Shown here piece after piece: positions 16,917 through 29,292 of a stretch of DNA of 64,000 nt. A program made the translations under genes and the position numbers. The notes beneath the pieces were generated by a model, which ran no database searches, had not been told where the DNA came from, and saw only the letters and a list, made by a program, of their open reading frames with translations. The stretch's first letter is position 1; each line of letters starts with the position of its first letter. Location of the stretch: contig JAJXUI010000003.1 in NCBI GenBank assembly GCA_021782995.1, positions 53,568 through 117,567 on the forward strand. The letters are read 5' to 3'. The stretch is from Pseudomonadota bacterium (GTDB lineage: Bacteria; Pseudomonadota; Gammaproteobacteria; Burkholderiales; Gallionellaceae).

Positions 16917-18884
16917 ATGGCGACTCAGCAAGACAAAAAGAAAACTCCCGGCGGCAAGAAGTCGGCGTTGAATACGAAACTCGATGCAAATCTGCAGATT
17001 GCCGAGAATGCTTCTCCTTCGCAGATACATGATGTAGAGGAGCGGCGCACACGCCTTAAAGCACTGATCGTGCTTGGCAAGGAGCGTGGCTATCTGACGT
17101 ACGCGGAAATCAACGACCACCTGCCTGAAATGCTTGAGGTCGAGCAGATCGAAGGCGTGGTCAGCATGATCAACGACATGGGCATCACGGTAACCGATCA
17201 GGCGCCTGATGCGGAAAGCATGGTCATGACTGAAGGTGCCGTCGTGGTTGTGGACGAAGACGCTGTAGAAGCAGCTGAACAAGCACTCGCGGCATCCACT
17301 GTCGATTCCGAATTTGGCCGCACAACTGACCCTGTTCGCATGTATATGCGTGAAATGGGCACGGTGGGTCTGTTGACGCGTCAGGACGAAATCGTCATTG
17401 CCAAGCGGATCGAAGAAGGCCTGAAGCACATGATCCAGGCAGTTTCAGCCTGTCCGGCCACAATTGCGGAAATCCTCGCGCTGGTTGAGAAGGTGCGGCT
17501 GGATGAGATGCGTATTGATGAAGTCATTGACGGATTCATCGAGGAAGAAGATGAGGTCGTGGTCAATGAGGAGCCTTCAGAAGAAGTCAGCGATGAAGAA
17601 ATTGACGAGGATGAGGACGAGGAGTCCTCGGAAGATCGTGATGCACTTGTTGCAGCCAATCTGGAACAGCTCAAGGCCGATGCATTAGACCGATTTGCCG
17701 TTATAGCCGACCTCTTTGGCAAGATGGGCAAGGCCTATGAAAAGCACGGATATCGCAGCAAACAATACAACAAGCTGCAGGAGCAGATATCAGAAGACCT
17801 GATGCAGTTCCGTTTCTCTGCCAAACAGGTGGACAAACTGTGCGATACCATGCGCAGCCTGGTAGAGGAAGTGCGTCAGCATGAGCGCAGTATTCAGGAT
17901 TTGTGCGTAAACAAGGCAAAAATGCCCCGTCCGCACTTCATCAAGATGTTCGTGAACAATGAAGACAATCTGAACTGGATTGATGACGAGATTGCCTCGA
18001 AAAAAGCATATAGCGAAACCTTGTCGCGTTTCCAGGCTGCAATCGTCGATCAGCAGACCCGCATGCTGGAAGTGCAGAAGCGTGTTGGCATCCCGATCAA
18101 GGACTTGAAGGATATCAACAAGCAGATGACAAATGGCGAGGCCAAGGCGCGTCGCGCCAAGCGTGACATGATCGAAGCCAACCTGCGTCTGGTAATCTCC
18201 ATTGCGAAGAAATATACCAATCGCGGACTGCAGTTCCTTGACCTGATCCAGGAAGGTAATATCGGCTTGATGAAGGCAGTGGACAAGTTTGAATATCGTC
18301 GCGGATACAAGTTTTCAACTTATGCCACATGGTGGATACGCCAGGCGATTACGCGTTCAATTGCAGACCAGGCGCGCACCATCCGTATTCCGGTGCACAT
18401 GATTGAAACCATCAACAAGATGAACCGCATTTCCCGCCAGATACTACAGGAAACCGGCATAGAGGCTGATCCGGCGACGCTTGCTGTGAAAATGGACATG
18501 CCGGAAGACAAGATCCGCAAGATCCTGAAAATTGCCAAAGAGCCAATCTCGATGGAAACGCCGGTTGGTGACGATGACGATTCGCATCTGGGGGATTTCA
18601 TAGAAGACTCCAACAGCATGGCGCCAATCGAAGCTGCTGTATATGACAGTTTGAGAAATGTCACCAAGGACATACTTGACTCGTTGACTCCACGTGAAGC
18701 CAAAGTGTTGCGCATGAGGTTCGGTATCGAGATGAATACCGACCATACTCTGGAAGAAGTGGGCAAACAGTTTGACGTAACGCGTGAGCGCATTCGTCAG
18801 ATTGAAGCGAAGGCGCTGCGCAAGCTGCGTCATCCTTCTCGTTCAGAGAAACTGAAGAGCTTCCTCGACGGCGATAACAGTTAG
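16917..18884 (+). CDS. rpoD: RNA polymerase primary sigma factor (sigma-70)
   Basis: 655 aa, region 2 [41 protein letters not shown], region 4 [33 protein letters not shown]. Confidence 0.98.
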
Positions 18885-18893
18885 TGCTGTACC

Positions 18894-18933
18894 GGGACGT
18901 TAGCTCAGTCGGTTAGAGCAGAGGACTCATAAT
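18894..18933 (+). pseudogene. 5' half of host tRNA with CAU anticodon (probable tRNA-Ile2), truncated by element insertion
   Basis: gggacgttagctcagtcggttagagcagaggactcataat; joined to 27461-27497 it gives a complete 77-nt cloverleaf with perfectly paired acceptor gggacgt/acgtccc. Confidence 0.9.
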
Positions 18934-19051
18934 ACATGGCGCAAACCTAACGGAATGCGCTAGAATGGCAGTAAAATCAATCGGTTGCAGCGTGTTTGTC
19001 TCGGTAGAGAAAAGCCACGTGTAATCGCTAAGTAACGGTTCAACGAGTAAC

Positions 19052-19130
19052 GGGCCGCTAGCTCATGCTTGGTTAGAGCAGCAGACTCATAATCTGTTGG
19101 TGCTGTGTTCGACTCACAGGCGGCCCACCA
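19052..19130 (+). tRNA. Element-encoded complete tRNA with CAU anticodon (19088-19090), CCA encoded
   Basis: gggccgc/gcggccc acceptor, gctc/gagc D-stem, gcaga-ctcataa-tctgt anticodon arm, ctgtg-ttcgact-cacag T-arm, ACCA end. Confidence 0.93.
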
Positions 19131-19138
19131 AAACGAAG

Positions 19139-19165
19139 CCCCAGCCCTCACCGGCTGGGGTTTTT
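19139..19165 (+). terminator. Intrinsic terminator of element tRNA
   Basis: CCCCAGCC-N6-GGCTGGGG-TTTTT. Confidence 0.9.
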
Positions 19166-19536: not shown

Positions 19537-20016
19537 TTAGGTAGGGCTTGTCATGCGTCGTGCGATTTCTGCTTCGATTTGTTCCAGCGTGGGCAGGGTG
19601 ACATGGACAGCACGCGGAGCGGCCAGGCCGTGCAGTTCGCTCAAGGCGATAAGTGCCTGCACGCGGGATTCGCCGTCCTTGTTCATGGCGGGATTCGCCA
19701 GCCGGTTGAGCGAGAACACAATCCAGTCGCGGATGTGCGCTTGCTTCTGCTGCTCGGTCGGGCGAATGCCCGCGTAGATGGTGGCATAGATGCCTTCGCG
19801 CCCCTCCCATGCACCGCGCCGGATTACGTCGCGCATGTCGGCCAACTGGTGAAGCACGCGCTGCCATACAGAGGTCGGCGACTCAAACGGCTGGGCGACA
19901 ACCACACGATCCCGGCCCTCAAGCCAGATCGTGTATCGGTCTGCCGGTGCTGTCCGCTCGTCATCGAATACAACATGCACTCGGGCGGTGCGGTCGATGT
20001 GGGTAATGATGCTCAT
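19537..20016 (-). CDS. Hypothetical protein of the integrative element
   Basis: 159 aa ORF in minus-strand cluster. Confidence 0.65.
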   Translation of the reverse strand: MSIITHIDRTARVHVVFDDERTAPADRYTIWLEGRDRVVVAQPFESPTSVWQRVLHQLADMRDVIRRGAWEGREGIYATIYAGIRPTEQQKQAHIRDWIVFSLNRLANPAMNKDGESRVQALIALSELHGLAAPRAVHVTLPTLEQIEAEIARRMTSPT

Positions 20017-20028
20017 TTGTCGCTCTCC

Positions 20029-20784
20029 TTATGGCGTGGGCAGGCTCGGTGTGCTGTACAGCCCGCTCACGGTGTCGGCCGCGAGGTACTGCACGTCCAG
20101 CTTCTTGAAAATCTCTTGCAGGGTGCCGATTTCAAACGGGGTCAGCTTCTCGCGCACTTCGTCGCGCACGTTGCGGCGCTCGTCGGGCGCTGGTGCATTC
20201 GGGTCGTCCAGTTTTTCCAGCAGAACGCTCAGAAGCTGCATCTCGTTCGAGTCCAGCTTGCCCAAGTTGCGGGCGGGCTTCTCGTCGGTGGTAAGAGTTA
20301 CGTCCTGCTGGAACCGGCTGGGCGCATCAAGACCGAGCAAGCGGCTACGGCGCTCCATGACGCGGACAGCAGCGGCCACAGCGGCAAGTCGTGCGGCCTT
20401 GTCTTCCGCGAGGCAGGTGCGCGGCAGGCCGGTATCGGGGTCTTTAACGACTTCCCCATTGCGGTCGATAACGGGAATCTGCACGATCTTGCCGTTGTGC
20501 AGTAACGGGGTGAAGCTGCGAAGCACGTTCATTGCTTCGGCATACAGCGAATCGAGGCGGGCCAGCTCTAGGCCGCGCAATTCCTCCGCTGGCTCTTTTG
20601 CCATAGAGGTCAATGCTCGGGTGATGACGTTATGGACTGACACCGCAGTGATGCCCATGTGGTCGCCGATTTCTTGAAGGCTGCGACCGTCAAGCCTCAT
20701 CTGGATAATCTCGGCGCGGCGTTCCGCTTCGCGGATGCTCTTGGCGCTGGTGATGGCCTTCGGGCCTTTGCCTGTCTTAATCAT
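20029..20784 (-). CDS. HTH-containing phage-like protein (terminase small-subunit-like N-terminus)
   Basis: 251 aa; REAERRAEIIQMRLDGRSLQEIGDHMGITAVSVHNVITRAL resembles HTH of terminase small subunits/sigma-like HTH. Confidence 0.6.
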   Translation of the reverse strand: MIKTGKGPKAITSAKSIREAERRAEIIQMRLDGRSLQEIGDHMGITAVSVHNVITRALTSMAKEPAEELRGLELARLDSLYAEAMNVLRSFTPLLHNGKIVQIPVIDRNGEVVKDPDTGLPRTCLAEDKAARLAAVAAAVRVMERRSRLLGLDAPSRFQQDVTLTTDEKPARNLGKLDSNEMQLLSVLLEKLDDPNAPAPDERRNVRDEVREKLTPFEIGTLQEIFKKLDVQYLAADTVSGLYSTPSLPTP

Positions 20785-20845: not shown

Positions 20846-21394
20846 TTACATGAAAACCGATACCCGGCTCATCTCTTTCGCGGCGTTGGCAATACGGACC
20901 TTGGACATGCCAAGCGATTCAACAATGCGGCTGACGCGAGCATCGTTCTCTTGCGTGGCAAAGCCTTCCGGAGTCGCGCCGGCCTGCTGCGAGAAATATC
21001 GGGCTTCCTTGTAATCGTGGAAGTCCGTTTCCAGTTCCCGCACCAGCTTGGCAAGGGTTTCGGCCAGCGGCTCCATGTCAGCGATGCGACTGACAGCGCG
21101 GGAAAGCACACTGTCGGCAACCTGCTTCAGCTTCGCAGCGCGAGCGGCCTGCTCAACCGCTTCGGCGCTGCCAATGTCCTGCTCAAGGCTGGTGCGCCGA
21201 AGCTCCAGACGCTGAATAAGGCGACGGGTCTTCTCGATTTCGATTTCCAGCTTGTCGGCTTTTGCGTCCTCACCCTTGGCAGCGGCGGTAGTCCAGTCCG
21301 CGTGAAGTGCGTGATACTGACCGCTGGCGTCGTTGTGTTTGGCGATTACGTCAGCAAGCGTTTCGCGCAGCTTGTTCATTTCAGAGGTGTTCAT
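20846..21394 (-). CDS. Coiled-coil hypothetical protein
   Basis: 182 aa, charged heptad-rich; same orientation and tight spacing within the cluster. Confidence 0.6.
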   Translation of the reverse strand: MNTSEMNKLRETLADVIAKHNDASGQYHALHADWTTAAAKGEDAKADKLEIEIEKTRRLIQRLELRRTSLEQDIGSAEAVEQAARAAKLKQVADSVLSRAVSRIADMEPLAETLAKLVRELETDFHDYKEARYFSQQAGATPEGFATQENDARVSRIVESLGMSKVRIANAAKEMSRVSVFM

Positions 21395-21417: not shown

Positions 21418-21840
21418 TTACTTGCGATGCTGGTTGGTGGCGTTGAGTTGCGCCTCGAATGCAGCTTTGCGTCGAGCGCCGCTGTCGCCACCGTTGAAGG
21501 CGTGCGCCTTCTGGTCAAGCTCTGCGCCAACAATCGCGTTGGGCAGGGAGGCCTTGAATTTCTCAAGCTCCTGATGCTCGGCTACCGTCATTTGAGACGG
21601 GCGGGACGGTTGCCCGCTGGTTTGGTCTTCCCGGTACTGATTAGTCTTCACTGTTGATGCTCCTTGGTTGAGAAGGTGGGTTAATGCGTCTTGGCGGGAA
21701 GCCCCCGCCCCAAGACTCTGTCTGACCTGCTCCACCGCTTGGAGAAGGTCTTTATTCAGTGTGAATTCCACGCGAGCGCCGCCGTCGTTTTTCAATCGGT
21801 CGCGGAATGCTTGCTGGTTCCTGGCGTTATCGGTTGGCAA
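21418..21840 (-). CDS. Small protein with putative ribbon-helix-helix-like segment
   Basis: 140 aa; ARVEFTLNKDLLQAVEQVRQSLGAGASRQDALTHLLNQGA. Confidence 0.5.
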   Translation of the reverse strand: MPTDNARNQQAFRDRLKNDGGARVEFTLNKDLLQAVEQVRQSLGAGASRQDALTHLLNQGASTVKTNQYREDQTSGQPSRPSQMTVAEHQELEKFKASLPNAIVGAELDQKAHAFNGGDSGARRKAAFEAQLNATNQHRK

Positions 21841-22822: not shown

Positions 22823-25207
22823 TCAGTCATAGCTCGGCAAGTCCAAAACCATGTAGCACTCGCCATGCTCGTTGTAGTCCTTCACCATGTCGGTGCCCGA
22901 GCATTTCGTGATGTATCCGCTGCTGCACAAGCTCCGCAGAACCCCATCAAGCGCACCGGTCGAGCCTTGCTTGTGGGATTTGAATGCGGGCAGGCTGCCG
23001 GTCTTCATCGTGAGGAACTTCCTCGGGACGATGCGGTTCTGGTGCAGGGCTGGCTTCACCTTGTAGCCTGCGCTCGGCGCTTTAATCAGGTAGTCCCGGA
23101 GGATTGCCAGAACCTTCGTTTCCCGCGCCTTGTCATCGCTGCCGATGTCACCGCTTTGCAGACGGGTCGTGAATACCGCGATGTCCCGCCGAACAAGGTC
23201 AATGGCCCATTCCGCATGGCGTGTGGTTATGCAGGGCGTCACATTGTTGTCGGCGACCGCCAGCAGAGCGGCAATGCGAAGCGCCTTGAGGTGCGCTCGG
23301 TTCCACATCTGGCGGCGGGAGTTGTCATCACCTGCCCGGTTAATGCTGGCGTCACACTCAAGGTTGAATGCGTCCAGCAAGTGCGCCGCATGGTGATCTC
23401 GTGCAACCGGCTGATAGGCGTTGTTCTGGTTGAGTGTCATGGCGTGCGTCACCAGTCCGCCAAACCATACCGCCCACGATTCGGGCAGTGCCTGTATCGG
23501 GTTTGGGTTCTCTGGCGGACGGTCGCCCTCATGCTCGACTATGGTGAAGCGGGACATAAACCCGTCTTCCATCATGTCCTCGGTCAGCGACTCGCGGAAG
23601 GTGCCGGGGGTGGAGTCGCCAATCATGCTGTATGCAATCCCGCTCACGGTAGCGACGTTCTTTTCCTTCTCGCTGTACGAGATACCGCCGACGAACGCAT
23701 CCGGCCCCGACTTGGAGTAGAGCTTCGTCATGGTGGTACGAAGGTCTTGGAGCGACTTGTCGTTAGCCTCGCTCATGCGCTTCAACCGACGCCCAAACTC
23801 GCTGGATACCTGCAAGAAGCAGGTGCGCCCTGCTGCTGCCTTCGTCAGAGCTTGGCCGGATGCGTATTCGCTGAAATCGAAGAACTCATGTACGCCGGGA
23901 TACTTCGCCTGCACCCCATGAATGAACATCGAAATGCCTTCGTGCATGGCTTCCTTGCCGATACCGCTTTTCGCCAGCAGAACCAGATACAGGTTCAAGC
24001 CCGATTTCGGAATCACCCATCGCTTGCCGCAAACACCGGCCAGCAGACCCAGCGCGGCCACAATGGCGACCTCTGGCACCGGGCGCATGGCGGCGGAGTG
24101 AATAAGCTGGGCAACCTGTCCCGCAACACCCGGAGGCCAGGGTAGCTGCGCCGCGCTGCGGGGCGCTGGGGCCGTTTGCTGGTGCAACTCAAGGGGGTTG
24201 CCAAGCTGGCTGCCCTGCGCCGCGCTGGTCGCCTGCAATTTCTCTGCTAGTTCGGCGCTCAGAAGCTCGGCACTGGCGACCCGTTCATTCTCGCGTTCAA
24301 GTCGAGCACGAATCATCGTCAAGGTGCGATTCAGGTAAGCATCATTCCGCGTCGCCTTCTCGCGCTTGCCCAGCTCCGACATGCGGAACAACCGGCGCAC
24401 CTGCTCATTCGACTTGCTGTAGAACGCCAGCATGGACAGGAGCGATAGATCAGCCTCGCTCTGCGACGGGTAGCCCAGCCCCTTCCAATCGCCCGCCCAT
24501 AGCTGCCGGAACTTGTCGCCATTGCTTGCATCCGCCCCGCGCTGCCAGATAGCTTCGTCGGTTTCGGTTTCGCTGACCTCGATCAGTTGCACTGTGGCCG
24601 TCCCCTGTTCTTCCGTCATCCGGGACACCATGTCGTCCAGTATTTCCTGCCGGTTCGCAATCGGCTTGGCAATGTAGGCATCGCCAGTGCAGATGATGAA
24701 TCGCTCTTGCGAATAGACCTCAACCCCGTCGCGCCGACGCCCTTTGCCGACCTTGCCTTCAACCCAGATATGCAGGCCTCGTCCGCTGCGCGACCGCTCG
24801 GTGTAGCTGTCAAAGGCACCGACGATCCTTTGGAAGCGTTCCAACTGCTCTTGCGTCGTGTCGTCCTTCACATCCAAGTCAATGCAGGTGTAAGGGTCGT
24901 TGGCGGTCAGTACATACCCGACAAACAAACCCTTCTCAACGGCCACATGGGCAACGGCATCAAAGCTGCTCCATGTCCTCGGGTCGGTGACACTTGCGGC
25001 GCGACCATCAACGGCCAGCGGGCGCTTGTCGGCACCAGCAAGGCACCATTGCGGCAGGTCACGCGGACCCTGCGGGAAATTGTCAAAGCCCTTTGCGCCG
25101 ATGCTGCTTACAATCCCCGGAAGCTCATTCAGGGGGCTGTTCTGGTTGTTCTCATTTACGGGTAGGGGGGTCGCGCTCCCTGCCCGTTTTGTTTGATCGA
25201 AGCTCAT
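22823..25207 (-). CDS. PrimPol (NrS-1-like) plus DUF3987/helicase-like replication protein
   Basis: 794 aa; TWSSFDAVAH...YTCIDLDVKDD...SRSGRGLHIWVEG primase-polymerase motifs; LAKSGIGKEAMHEG P-loop-like motif in C-terminal half. Confidence 0.85.
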   Translation of the reverse strand: MSFDQTKRAGSATPLPVNENNQNSPLNELPGIVSSIGAKGFDNFPQGPRDLPQWCLAGADKRPLAVDGRAASVTDPRTWSSFDAVAHVAVEKGLFVGYVLTANDPYTCIDLDVKDDTTQEQLERFQRIVGAFDSYTERSRSGRGLHIWVEGKVGKGRRRDGVEVYSQERFIICTGDAYIAKPIANRQEILDDMVSRMTEEQGTATVQLIEVSETETDEAIWQRGADASNGDKFRQLWAGDWKGLGYPSQSEADLSLLSMLAFYSKSNEQVRRLFRMSELGKREKATRNDAYLNRTLTMIRARLERENERVASAELLSAELAEKLQATSAAQGSQLGNPLELHQQTAPAPRSAAQLPWPPGVAGQVAQLIHSAAMRPVPEVAIVAALGLLAGVCGKRWVIPKSGLNLYLVLLAKSGIGKEAMHEGISMFIHGVQAKYPGVHEFFDFSEYASGQALTKAAAGRTCFLQVSSEFGRRLKRMSEANDKSLQDLRTTMTKLYSKSGPDAFVGGISYSEKEKNVATVSGIAYSMIGDSTPGTFRESLTEDMMEDGFMSRFTIVEHEGDRPPENPNPIQALPESWAVWFGGLVTHAMTLNQNNAYQPVARDHHAAHLLDAFNLECDASINRAGDDNSRRQMWNRAHLKALRIAALLAVADNNVTPCITTRHAEWAIDLVRRDIAVFTTRLQSGDIGSDDKARETKVLAILRDYLIKAPSAGYKVKPALHQNRIVPRKFLTMKTGSLPAFKSHKQGSTGALDGVLRSLCSSGYITKCSGTDMVKDYNEHGECYMVLDLPSYD

Positions 25208-25318: not shown

Positions 25319-25561
25319 TCAGTAGGATTGGGCGCCGGTGTTACCTGTGCCGGTATGCGTATTCGCGGCAAGCCAAGCGTCCAGCGTGGTTCGTTCGTAC
25401 CGAACCAGCTTGCCCAGTTTGACGAACTCTGGGCCGCGCCCGCCCTGTGAGCGCCATTGCGCGAGGGTGTTGGGCGAGGGTGTGCCGCCCAAGTAGGCGG
25501 ATGCTTGTGGGGTATCGAAAAGCTGGCGAACTACGGGCTGCTCTTGCGTGGTCGTGGTCAT
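25319..25561 (-). CDS. AlpA/MerR-like helix-turn-helix regulator or excisionase
   Basis: RQLFDTPQASAYLGGTPSPNTLAQWRSQGGRGPEFVKLGKLVRYERTTLDAWLAAN; ORF open to 25627 but MTTTTQEQ at 25561 is the likely start. Confidence 0.8.
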   Translation of the reverse strand: MTTTTQEQPVVRQLFDTPQASAYLGGTPSPNTLAQWRSQGGRGPEFVKLGKLVRYERTTLDAWLAANTHTGTGNTGAQSY

Positions 25562-25829
25562 GGCGGTGACTCCATCTACGGCCACCGCCACCAGCAATAG
25601 AAAAGGCGGACAGTGGGCCAACTGCACCGAATTACCAGTGCATTGACCCCCTGTCCGCCTTCGCAGACTTTTCGTTTGCCCTTTCGGGTCGCGTCCTCTC
25701 CTTTCGGGTCGGACGGCCTCCCGAAGCGTTGCGCTTCGGGTTCAGCAAGGTGGTGATGGCCGTAATGTAGCAACGTGGGCCATCGTGTGCAATCTTATAT
25801 TGTCTTTTCCGTCTAACTCTTGGGTCTCA

Positions 25830-27140
25830 TCAAGCCCGCAGGGCTATGACGTTTTCACCGCTGGCCGCAGCCTTGGCAATCTCGCCCTGACGCACTATCC
25901 ATGCGCTGATCGCTTCCAGCGCGGGCAGCAACGATGCCGGGTCGGGGTTGTTCGCGTAGTGCTTACCATGCACGTCCGAAGCCTTGTGATTCTCTAGCTG
26001 GCGGCTGGTGTCGCCGTCAATGCCCACGATCTTGGCAACGTCCTCAAAGGTGCGGCGCATGTCGTGATTGGACAGGTGGAGTCCCGCAACCTCGCTGACC
26101 TTCTCCCACATCGCACGCGGGTCTTTCATGTGGCCGCTGTCGCCGCGAACCGCCGGAAAGACGTACTCATTACCCTTCGTCGTGCGCTCGGCATAACGGC
26201 GCGTCAGAATCTGGTGCAGCGCCTTGGTGATAGGAAATGTCATCTGGTTATGGTTCTTCGCAATATCGGCGGGGATATGGAAGGTGGGCAGGTCGCCGTC
26301 GAGCTTCACCCTACCCCATGTCAGGCTCGATGCTTCCCCGATTCGACAGCCCGTAAGAATGAGAAACATTACGAGGTCTGCCGCGACGCTGGTGCTGCGC
26401 CGGTTGCGCTCCGGGTCTGCGTACTGCTGGAGAAGCAACCATGTCGCGCCGATCTTGTCCTTTGGAATGCGGCCGTCGCGTGCCTTCTCCGGGTTCCATT
26501 GCGTCATGCCGCCCTGCTTGAACATCTGCGAGACAGGGTTGATTGGCAGAATCGGATATTCGCCGTCGCTGGTGGCGTTCTTCTCCCGCGCCCAGTTGAG
26601 CAGCGCCCGGAGGTTACGGAATGCCTGATTCGCCTGAACTGGTGCGGTCTTGGTCAGTTCGCGGAACCGCTTTAGGCAAGCATCGCGGGTGATGCCAGCA
26701 ACGGGCTTGTCTGCCCACTCTGAGAAGGTGACGGCCACACACTTCCGAATATCGGCCTTGCTGGCAGGGCGAAGCGGGCCATGCTTGGTGCGCTTGTGCT
26801 CGATGTAGTCCTCCATCACTTCGCGGAGGGTTTCGGTCTGCGCGACCTTCTTGCGCTTCTCGTCCTGTGGGTTGATCCCGTCGCCCATATCCAGCAGCAT
26901 CTTCAAGGCACGCTTCCGCGCCTCGTCGCAAGAAAGCATGGGATGCTGGCCGAGCGTGAAACGGCGCGTCTTGCCATTCACCGGGCGCTGGACGATGTAG
27001 CTCCGCACTCCGTTGGAGGTGACGCGGACGCCGAAGCCCTTTGTCGCTCCTTCCTCCCAATAGAACTCCTGTCCTTTCTCTGCTGACGGGACGGGCAGGT
27101 TATCGACTGCCAGCTTGGTGAGCTTCTTGATGGTTGCCAT
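25830..27140 (-). CDS. Tyrosine recombinase/integrase (P4-type, DUF4102 N-terminus)
   Basis: 436 aa; N-terminal KEFYWEEGATKGFGVRVTSNGVRSYIVQRPV-like segment; catalytic LTGCRIGEASSLTW ... LSNHDMRRTFEDVA ... Y residue in HGKHYAN. Confidence 0.93.
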   Translation of the reverse strand: MATIKKLTKLAVDNLPVPSAEKGQEFYWEEGATKGFGVRVTSNGVRSYIVQRPVNGKTRRFTLGQHPMLSCDEARKRALKMLLDMGDGINPQDEKRKKVAQTETLREVMEDYIEHKRTKHGPLRPASKADIRKCVAVTFSEWADKPVAGITRDACLKRFRELTKTAPVQANQAFRNLRALLNWAREKNATSDGEYPILPINPVSQMFKQGGMTQWNPEKARDGRIPKDKIGATWLLLQQYADPERNRRSTSVAADLVMFLILTGCRIGEASSLTWGRVKLDGDLPTFHIPADIAKNHNQMTFPITKALHQILTRRYAERTTKGNEYVFPAVRGDSGHMKDPRAMWEKVSEVAGLHLSNHDMRRTFEDVAKIVGIDGDTSRQLENHKASDVHGKHYANNPDPASLLPALEAISAWIVRQGEIAKAAASGENVIALRA

Positions 27141-27460
27141 GTCAGTTGCCCTCCTGTGCCAGCGTGAAAGGTGTGGGGGCTGATATTTCTAGGTCGGTTC
27201 CGGTTATTCTTGTCATGTTGGCATTTCCTCTTAGACGTTGCGATGCTGACCAGAGGTCGGGACTGTTGGCGCAGTCGCCGGCCTCACTCGTTCCACGGTC
27301 TTACTTTTTCCCGTGTAAGCCCAGTGTAACGAATGCACGTAGAAGTTAGCAATAGCACATATAACCAAAATCGCCGCTAAGTCGTTGATTTGCCTACGGT
27401 CGTATAGTTACATATAAGCAGGCAAAAGCAGGTATAATGCCACCCCTGATAACTCATAAT

Positions 27461-27497
27461 CCTTTGGTCCGCGGTTCGAGTCCGCGACGTCCCACCA
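27461..27497 (+). pseudogene. 3' half of the host tRNA(CAU), separated from its 5' half
   Basis: cctttggtccgcggttcgagtccgcgacgtcccacca following the 9-bp repeat. Confidence 0.9.
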
Positions 27498-27528: not shown

Positions 27529-29292
27529 CTATTTCAGAGGTCCGAAATGAATTTCAAGCAGAACCAAGATGATCACAAAAAATAGTAGTGACAGGCTTTT
27601 CCAGAACAGTACTGGATTTCTTTCGATAAGCGGCGGGCGAGTCTTGTTCAGGAATGACCTGTTTGGATGAAACAGGTCAAAAATGAACTCGGATAATTCC
27701 GGGTATCGTTTATACGGATCGACTTGAACGGCTTTTGCGATAGCCTCATCAACCCATATGGGTATGGCAGGCTCATAGTTACGTATCGAGTCATACCTTA
27801 ATTTCTTTTGTTCTGCAGCGTATTTGCATTTTGCTACTTGCATGCCATATGGAAATTTCCCGGTCAGTAACTGATAAGTGATGATGCCCAGTGAGTATAT
27901 GTCTGAGCGGCTGGTGCCGGCTTCTCCCAGAAAATATTCAGGTGCTGAATACAGTGCCGTTCCGAGCAGGTTTTCCCGTTCAAATGGAGCTTCGACTTCA
28001 TTGATGCCAGCTACATGGGTTGAACCGAAGTCGATTATTTTCACGGTTCCTGTGCTGTCTATCATGATATTTTTGGGGCGCAGATCCTGATGCCGCATTT
28101 CCAGGCGATGGAAGGCGCGCAATCCCTTTGCAATCTGGTCGATGATATTCCGAACAGTCTGCAAATCGGGCCTGGGGTGATCGCGCATCCATTGGGATAA
28201 GGTGACACCTTCGATATATTCAGTGACATTGTAAAAATAATTACGTTTTCGCTTTTGCAGGAAAGGCTTGAGTACATGCGGATTGCTGATTCGTCTTGCA
28301 ATCCACTCTTCAAGCAGGAACCTTTCAAGATGGGCGGCATTTCCCTGCAAATCTACGGAGGGTGTTTTCAGGACCACGATAGTTTGAGTGTCCTTGTCTT
28401 GAGCCAGATAGACATGGCTGCGATGGCTTGCGTGAATTTCTCTCAGGATTCGATATCCTTCAAATTCCATCCTCGCATCCAGCATGGGTGGAAAAGGCAA
28501 TTCGTTAACCTGCCGGTAAAGCTGGCTGGCGTCCGGACCCGGGGTTTCATCAATTCGCACGATCTGGATAGTCAGGTTATCGTTGCTGCCCTGCTTCATC
28601 GCTTCAGAAGCGATAATTTGTGCTGCAATGTCCAGTTCATTGGCGTGAATCTTTATGGTCTCGACCATGAACGATATGCTGGCAAATTCGTGAATTCCAT
28701 CTGTCATCAGCAGGAAAATATCACCGGTTTCAAAATGCAGTGACTGGTAGTCTATATCCAGATAGTTGTTGATTCCCATTGCACGACTGAGATAGCTCTT
28801 CTCCCCGGCAATCCGCATGCGATGATCCTGGGTCAGTTGTTCAAGGGAATTGCCTTGCAGGCGATAGATTCTGGTATCGCCAACATGAAACAAATGTGCA
28901 GTCGTTGACTTGAGTATCAGGGCGCTCATTGTGCATACATAGCCCCTGTCCTTGTCAAAACGGTATTCGCTGCGCTGGGATTGCGCATGCAGCCAGGAAT
29001 TGATCGCAGTCAGAACCTGCTGAGCTGATTTCTTGACTGACCATGCTTCCGAAGTGCAATAGTAGTCAGCCAGGAATCCGGTAATCGCAGATTTACTGGC
29101 TTCCTGGCTGACTTCGCTGCTGCTGATGCCATCAGCGAGGGCAATGGCGATGCCCTTGCTTTCCAGTTGCTCATCATCGGGGATGTACAGGCCATGGTAA
29201 TCCTGATTGATATCCTTATGGCCTTTGTCAGTGTATTGGCCGGTGGTGATTCTGAGTTTTGTATTCATGGCTTGAAAATGAAAAGGAGTCAC
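27529..29292 (-). CDS. Bifunctional PP2C-type phosphatase / Ser-Thr protein kinase with C-terminal TM
   Basis: N-terminal PP2C (ALADGISSSEVS..., GDTRIYRLQG), kinase domain (RHQDLRPKNIMIDSTGTVKIIDFGST), C-terminal hydrophobic helix. Confidence 0.92.
   Translation of the reverse strand: MTPFHFQAMNTKLRITTGQYTDKGHKDINQDYHGLYIPDDEQLESKGIAIALADGISSSEVSQEASKSAITGFLADYYCTSEAWSVKKSAQQVLTAINSWLHAQSQRSEYRFDKDRGYVCTMSALILKSTTAHLFHVGDTRIYRLQGNSLEQLTQDHRMRIAGEKSYLSRAMGINNYLDIDYQSLHFETGDIFLLMTDGIHEFASISFMVETIKIHANELDIAAQIIASEAMKQGSNDNLTIQIVRIDETPGPDASQLYRQVNELPFPPMLDARMEFEGYRILREIHASHRSHVYLAQDKDTQTIVVLKTPSVDLQGNAAHLERFLLEEWIARRISNPHVLKPFLQKRKRNYFYNVTEYIEGVTLSQWMRDHPRPDLQTVRNIIDQIAKGLRAFHRLEMRHQDLRPKNIMIDSTGTVKIIDFGSTHVAGINEVEAPFERENLLGTALYSAPEYFLGEAGTSRSDIYSLGIITYQLLTGKFPYGMQVAKCKYAAEQKKLRYDSIRNYEPAIPIWVDEAIAKAVQVDPYKRYPELSEFIFDLFHPNRSFLNKTRPPLIERNPVLFWKSLSLLFFVIILVLLEIHFGPLK

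Follow-up and report, generated by a model that had tools for sequence, protein, structure and literature searches.

A compact integrase-bearing element of about 8.5 kb is inferred, with a probability of about 0.9, to use tRNA-dependent integration, in which it breaks the tRNA-Ile2(CAU) gene of its host and compensates with a complete tRNA of its own. The element lies in the window, the whole stretch of 64,000 nucleotides that was analysed, where it splits a tRNA(CAU) gene 3' of rpoD. The junctions and the replacement tRNA are defined by the following features.

16917–18884, plus strand: rpoD (RpoD, 655 aa; ORF list), the host gene directly 5' of the split tRNA.
18894–18933, plus strand: 5' half of the disrupted host tRNA(CAU) gene (GGGACGT...GAGGACTCATAAT), directly after rpoD.
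18925–18933, no strand: attL core ACTCATAAT, 9 bp, common to attL and attR.
18934–19051, no strand: spacer from attL to the tRNA, 118 bp, with repeated GTTACA, TGTAAC and AAGTAAC words.
19052–19130, plus strand: complete replacement tRNA(CAU), 79 nt including CCA (ARAGORN, Rfam, conservation, stem pairing).
19139–19165, plus strand: intrinsic terminator of the element tRNA, a CCCCAGCC-CTCACC-GGCTGGGG-TTTTT hairpin.
27452–27460, no strand: attR core ACTCATAAT, 9 bp, matching the attL core.
27452–27497, plus strand: 3' half of the disrupted host tRNA(CAU) gene, undamaged through CCA.

The inserted unit measures 8,527 bp. Its attB site lies within the host tRNA gene, the core is short (about 10 bp), and the tRNA is not rebuilt. 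A classical restoration test found no tRNA 3' half after the attL core, and attL is not kept functional. The host 5' half continues into non-tRNA sequence, and its anticodon stem is paired at only 3/5 positions. Joining of the two host halves gives a 77-nt tRNA with every stem paired in a stem-pairing check, and this rebuilt tRNA is 97% identical to the intact gene of one host-family member. In relatives, the C-terminus of RpoD is 90–97% identical, and a tRNA-Ile2-type gene is found downstream of it in most. Both halves are undamaged, which would suit a scheme in which they are expressed and joined, as archaeal split tRNAs are, leaving the element tRNA dispensable. We give this scheme almost no credence, as the halves are 8.5 kb apart, the 5' half leads into unrelated sequence, and joining of this kind is not known from bacteria.

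The sequence-only reading had described a complete 79-nt tRNA(CAU) with CCA and intact stems 118 bp inside the left junction. ARAGORN, Rfam and stem pairing bear this out, with the junction ending at 18933. The match to Rfam RF00005 (54.1 bits, E 7.5e-9) is the sole RNA family match in the window, and the acceptor (7/7), anticodon (5/5) and T (5/5) stems are fully paired. The element therefore supplies a full cloverleaf with the anticodon of the broken gene. This tRNA shares only 75% identity with the rebuilt host tRNA, and its D loop has 11 nt, two more than that of the host; it is a separate tRNA, as had been proposed, and no duplicate of the split gene. The hairpin terminator was also recovered, and its stretch has a folding energy of −24.5 kcal/mol (z = −6.6). 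A tRNA of this form, the 79-nt type (78 nt in L095), is resident directly after rpoD, with no element, in three host-family members (L093:10185, L094:2111, and L095:8278). The distribution of this resident type across the genera of the host family is patchy.

Among five close relatives, the element tRNA (95–100% identity) and the terminator (94–100%) are more strongly conserved than the spacer (51–85%) and the host half (73–93%). The single variant tRNA among these relatives differs from the others only by compensatory changes at two base pairs of its T stem. In 18 distinct element tRNAs, 297 of the 306 stem positions are paired, with many pair types. The pairs C4-G69 and C5-G68, put forward earlier as TilS identity features of tRNA-Ile2, are present, as they are in 16 of the 18 distinct element tRNAs; they are consistent with an Ile2 identity and do not prove it.

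The broken host gene is most likely tRNA-Ile2, because the genome has separate fMet and elongator Met tRNA genes, possesses TilS, and uses AUA codons (8 in rpoD; 81 per 6,630 codons checked), and because no UAU tRNA was found in it. This genome is a MAG of 2.75 Mb that is 85% complete, and a second Ile2 gene could be missing from it. Its CAU tRNAs are fMet, elongator Met, the element tRNA, and the two host halves. The separate fMet and elongator Met genes point to an Ile2 identity for the element tRNA as well. Another tRNA-Ile2 gene in the genome had been named as an observation that would speak against replacement; an exact-pattern search of the 85% complete MAG found no other intact gene of this type. 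The element tRNA is thus most likely the only AUA reader found in this incomplete genome. Because a MAG can miss a gene, the weight of the sole-copy argument is borne by seven cultured isolates with the same arrangement (Eoetvoesiella, Castellaniella, Rhodocyclus, Pseudohongiella, Marinobacter, Paraglaciecola, and Ectothiorhodospira). No second intact Ile2-type gene was found in their draft assemblies with two exact patterns, by which an unusual gene could be missed. A separate elongator Met gene was seen in Marinobacter, Paraglaciecola, and Ectothiorhodospira. These isolates are alive with no intact Ile2-type gene detected other than the element tRNA, which is therefore very probably functional in them.

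The chance that a CAU tRNA falls no more than 250 bp from a chosen point of this genome is about 4e-4, and chance placement is excluded because the layout recurs in other genomes. The D arm of the element tRNA is present in 97 viral contigs. A search of viral contigs with this D arm and follow-up patterns led to three contigs (L153, L231, and L250) in which a complete CAU tRNA comes after a split one; in L153, which lies downstream of rpoD, the two tRNA types are swapped relative to the window. The layout was then expressed as a pattern that used no protein information (CAU 5' half, 99–129 nt, CAU tRNA, same orientation) and scanned over 85,462 species genomes. The scan matched 26 loci; in 24 of them a split CAU tRNA precedes a replacement, a count that is a lower bound since other distances fall outside the pattern. 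Loci L251 and L257 are one sequence in two bins, so that 23 of the 24 are distinct. This identical sequence was binned as Burkholderiaceae and as an alphaproteobacterial MAG, likely a binning error. The hosts include Nitrosomonas, Dechloromonas, Azoarcus, Rhodocyclus, Castellaniella, Eoetvoesiella, Comamonas, Marinobacter, Paraglaciecola, Pseudohongiella, Ectothiorhodospira, Bacteroides, Tannerellaceae, and a Saccharibacteria bin. Judged from the sequences of these loci, the arrangement is a real, repeated strategy and no one-off.

The remaining two matches (L264 and L268) are plain tandem intact tRNAs and were rejected as split-and-replace cases. They are what a tandem tRNA duplication or a pseudogene, with no mobile element involved, would predict. 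For the window this explanation has a negligible probability and is refuted by the attL/attR pairs: an integrase is present, an attR with the matching 3' half lies 8.5 kb away, and the same core and element occur in unrelated hosts with different tRNAs.

A rival view is that the element tRNA is ordinary cargo, useful to the element for the translation of its own genes or as protection against defences that cut tRNAs, and that it lies near the broken tRNA only by coincidence. Many phages hold such a tRNA far from any split gene, as the 97 viral contigs illustrate, and jumbo phages also carry a tRNA of the element type. However, the 24 genomes each combine a broken gene with a replacement of matching anticodon at a near-fixed distance just inside attL, within a scan that itself required a CAU tRNA in the same orientation and so left mismatched anticodons outside the sample. 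Moreover, the element tRNA is the only intact Ile2-type gene left by exact patterns. We consider the cargo explanation quite improbable and retain tRNA-dependent integration with replacement. The earlier proposal of a 'destroy and replace' strategy is well supported by the diverged tRNA with the same anticodon, by its position as the sole intact Ile2-type gene found, and by the recurrence of the layout with related integrases.

Twenty of the 24 replacements are complete, three contain a group I intron, and one has been split in its turn, with a third, intact tRNA after it. The introns (L255, L265, and L269; Rfam RF00028, 80–98 bits) lie in the anticodon loop of the replacement tRNA and hide the integration core. 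The nested case is that of Ectothiorhodospira shaposhnikovii (L356:740-1112 and G546:C66), with a host half, a halved replacement, and an intact second replacement. The matching 3' half adjoins an integrase fragment that is 64% identical to the integrase of the window. This order of parts indicates that a replacement tRNA has been split and replaced again.

Several other loci were set aside. Two host-family genomes with a broken tRNA-Ile2 (G008 and G017) have a group I intron-like insert instead of an element, and Acinetobacter records with an integrase beside tRNA-Met showed no split tRNA. Three host-family members have a tRNA with this 5' half and a group I intron-like insert in the anticodon loop (L127:7789-8070, L128:325-552, and the second tRNA-like match of L135), at the spot used by the element. 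Of L127 and L128, which were scanned, only L128 reached the Rfam cut-off. In genome G106 (L125:10702, minus strand), an orphan 3' half of the 77-nt type lies a few kb from an int-alpA RNA, while the tRNA gene next to rpoD is complete, belongs to the other type, and does not match the orphan half.

The named genes of the element are all on the minus strand and are transcribed toward attL.

19537–20016, minus strand: ORF of 159 aa with no family match; a homologue in the Eoetvoesiella element is 50% identical.
20029–20784, minus strand: ORF of 251 aa with an N-terminal HTH; PHROG 645, tentatively small-terminase-like.
20846–21394, minus strand: ORF of 182 aa, coiled-coil-like.
21418–21840, minus strand: ORF of 140 aa; PHROG 4738, a weak match to phage transcriptional repressors; 95% identical in Eoetvoesiella.
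22823–25207, minus strand: primase/helicase-type replication protein, 794 aa; PHROG 3022 (E 2e-229), DUF3987, NrS-1 polymerase HBD.
25319–25627, minus strand: HTH_17 excisionase-type regulator, 102 aa; PF12728, PHROG 66.
25830–27140, minus strand: tyrosine integrase, 436 aa; Arm-DNA-bind_3 (PF13356) and Phage_integrase (PF00589).

The integrase is a tyrosine recombinase with an N-terminal arm-binding domain, as expected for tRNA-dependent integration. The element is PICI-like in being compact and in combining an integrase, an AlpA/HTH_17 excisionase, and a primase. No structural, portal, or large-terminase gene was found among the scanned ORFs of the 8.5 kb, and a temperate phage was rejected for this reason; the element apparently belongs to a compact, non-phage family. 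The top Foldseek match of the 251-aa HTH protein is a terminase small subunit (E 1.1e-5), obtained with a low-confidence model (pLDDT 56). Because this resemblance is weak, we only suggest that the element may be a satellite. Just beyond attR, a host gene (27529–29292) codes for a fusion of a PP2C phosphatase with a protein kinase domain, and a formate/nitrite transporter gene adjoins it.

The sequence-only reading had called for a search for integrases of this family paired with an attL-proximal full tRNA(CAU). Such pairs were found: relatives of the window integrase are present in 5 of the 15 layout-positive genomes searched, with identities of 95, 73, 67, 66, and 52%. In 400 genomes of the order that were not chosen by layout, the best identities were 33–36%, and none of the seven new integrase loci scanned there had a tRNA within 1.5 kb. 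Therefore, the tRNA layout is the right probe, and the integrase alone is a poor one. A search of viral contigs with the single integrase protein gave no match.

Pairs of attL and attR on one contig were found in Eoetvoesiella (8.2 kb), Oryzomicrobium, Pseudohongiella, and Comamonas, the last with a different integrase. The rebuilt host tRNAs of these four are fully or nearly fully paired. Of seven cases compared, five would lose acceptor pairs in a chimera of the host 5' half and the 3' half of the element tRNA. The core ACTCATAAT recurs in the Eoetvoesiella element (L345), which keeps the integrase, the excisionase, and one regulator at 95–98% and has a different primase (46%). The tRNA therefore travels with the integration module. 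One and the same element tRNA is present in two kinds of host, with a tRNA of the 77-nt type in the window and of the 79-nt type in Eoetvoesiella. In Pseudohongiella (L346:994-9249), the element tRNA equals the host tRNA, and a classical attL could have worked there; its integrase frame contains an internal TGA, perhaps in a decaying or homogenised copy. Eoetvoesiella also has a further, decayed 3' half 1 kb past attR (L345:10289-10335), which follows two small genes that by eye resemble toxin-antitoxin genes and is likely the remnant of an older island.

These pairs bear on the possibility that the arrangement is mainly an addiction device, with the host bound to keep the element for the sake of an essential tRNA. 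The element tRNA does look essential while integrated, and only its deletion with the element in place should be lethal; the earlier idea of addiction-like maintenance is only partly right. A parallel is offered by PICIs that damage the attR tRNA fragment, which are thought in the available text of PMC10111431 to act like addiction modules. However, the attR half is intact in the window and in five other elements, precise excision would give a fully or nearly fully paired host tRNA, and only imprecise loss would be punished. We regard addiction as an unlikely main function. Freedom from matching the host tRNA, and with it a gain in host range, is the most likely benefit of tRNA replacement and the better-supported one.

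In the mechanism that we propose, the tyrosine integrase would recombine the 9-bp core, which lies in the anticodon loop of the tRNA-Ile2(CAU) gene that follows rpoD in the host. As attP would lack the tRNA 3' half, integration would break the host gene, and compensation would come from the element's own tRNA-Ile2(CAU), 118 bp inside attL, in the direction of the broken gene and with its own terminator. It is probably transcribed either by read-through of the broken half from the promoter of the host tRNA or from a promoter within the spacer. No sigma-70 promoter was detected in the spacer of the window, so transcription would rest on read-through or a weak promoter; the Eoetvoesiella spacer contains one candidate, TTGTAA-17-TAGAAT. 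The spacer is probably also the attP arm, and its TGTAA and AAGTAAC words are kept across the five aligned relatives. The transcript would be trimmed by RNase P, and the tRNA would be charged and would read AUA after conversion of C34 to lysidine by TilS. Precise excision would rebuild the host gene. Because the target need match only the invariant anticodon loop, such a cassette would admit one element to hosts with differing tRNA-Ile2 sequences.

The mechanism is already known as tRNA-dependent lysogeny, which was described and tested in actinobacteriophages (Guerrero-Bustamante & Hatfull, mBio 2024, PMC10865867). The examples in the available text of that paper include Fionnbharth (tRNA-Lys-TTT) and the Gordonia phages OneUp and Mollymur (tRNA-Ile2-CAT, 9–10 bp core). 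Those phages and the present element share a tyrosine integrase with an arm domain, an attB in a tRNA gene, a core that does not rebuild the tRNA (9–11 bp there), and an element tRNA of the same isotype. They are temperate actinobacterial phages studied by experiment, whereas ours is an 8.5-kb proteobacterial element with no recognisable structural genes, read from its sequence. The position of the tRNA beside attL sets the window element apart from the phages as that text presents them, and serial replacement and intron-bearing replacements, seen here, do not figure in it.

In Sinorhizobium meliloti, prophage-related sequences have inactivated host tRNAs and replaced them with foreign tRNAs of the same isoacceptor (PMC11476347, 2024). 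That case is likewise proteobacterial, but it concerns Thr, Asn, and Lys tRNA hot spots in an alphaproteobacterium, is phage-related, and shows no common element family. Gram-negative PICIs resemble the present element in their small size, in their integrase, excisionase, and primase, and, for some, in the tRNA-Ile2 target. According to the available text of PMC10111431 (2023), a replacement sequence in their attP keeps the target functional and the attR fragment is sometimes damaged; a separate complete tRNA, as in the window, is not part of that description. Legionella adelaidensis (L246) uses the same gene after rpoD and the same anticodon region, but there the full tRNA stays at rpoD and an identical 3' half lies at the far end, 13 kb off. 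It was rejected as the same case and represents classical restoration. The novelty is therefore limited to a compact, apparently non-phage element family, its distribution beyond actinobacteria, serial replacement, and the presence of group I introns in some replacements, of which an earlier description is possible.

A broader view can be held only tentatively. The cassette of attP arm, tRNA, and terminator may be a portable host-range module that became distributed over different phyla at the tRNA-Ile2 site and causes an essential tRNA gene to turn over repeatedly, with replacements being split and replaced again, while a group I intron in the anticodon loop hides the core and protects some of them. 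The cassette also suggests a simple design for integration vectors to be used across laboratory hosts that differ in their tRNA sequences. Such a replacement would escape annotation pipelines that report full tRNAs only.

The authors of PMC10865867 state that prevalence beyond actinobacteriophages needs more investigation, and for one target our results give a direct answer. At tRNA-Ile2(CAU), the arrangement is widespread among Beta- and Gammaproteobacteria, and it is also found in Bacteroidota and a Saccharibacteria bin. The findings indicate that element-borne tRNAs can become the only AUA-reading tRNA of a cell, even serially.
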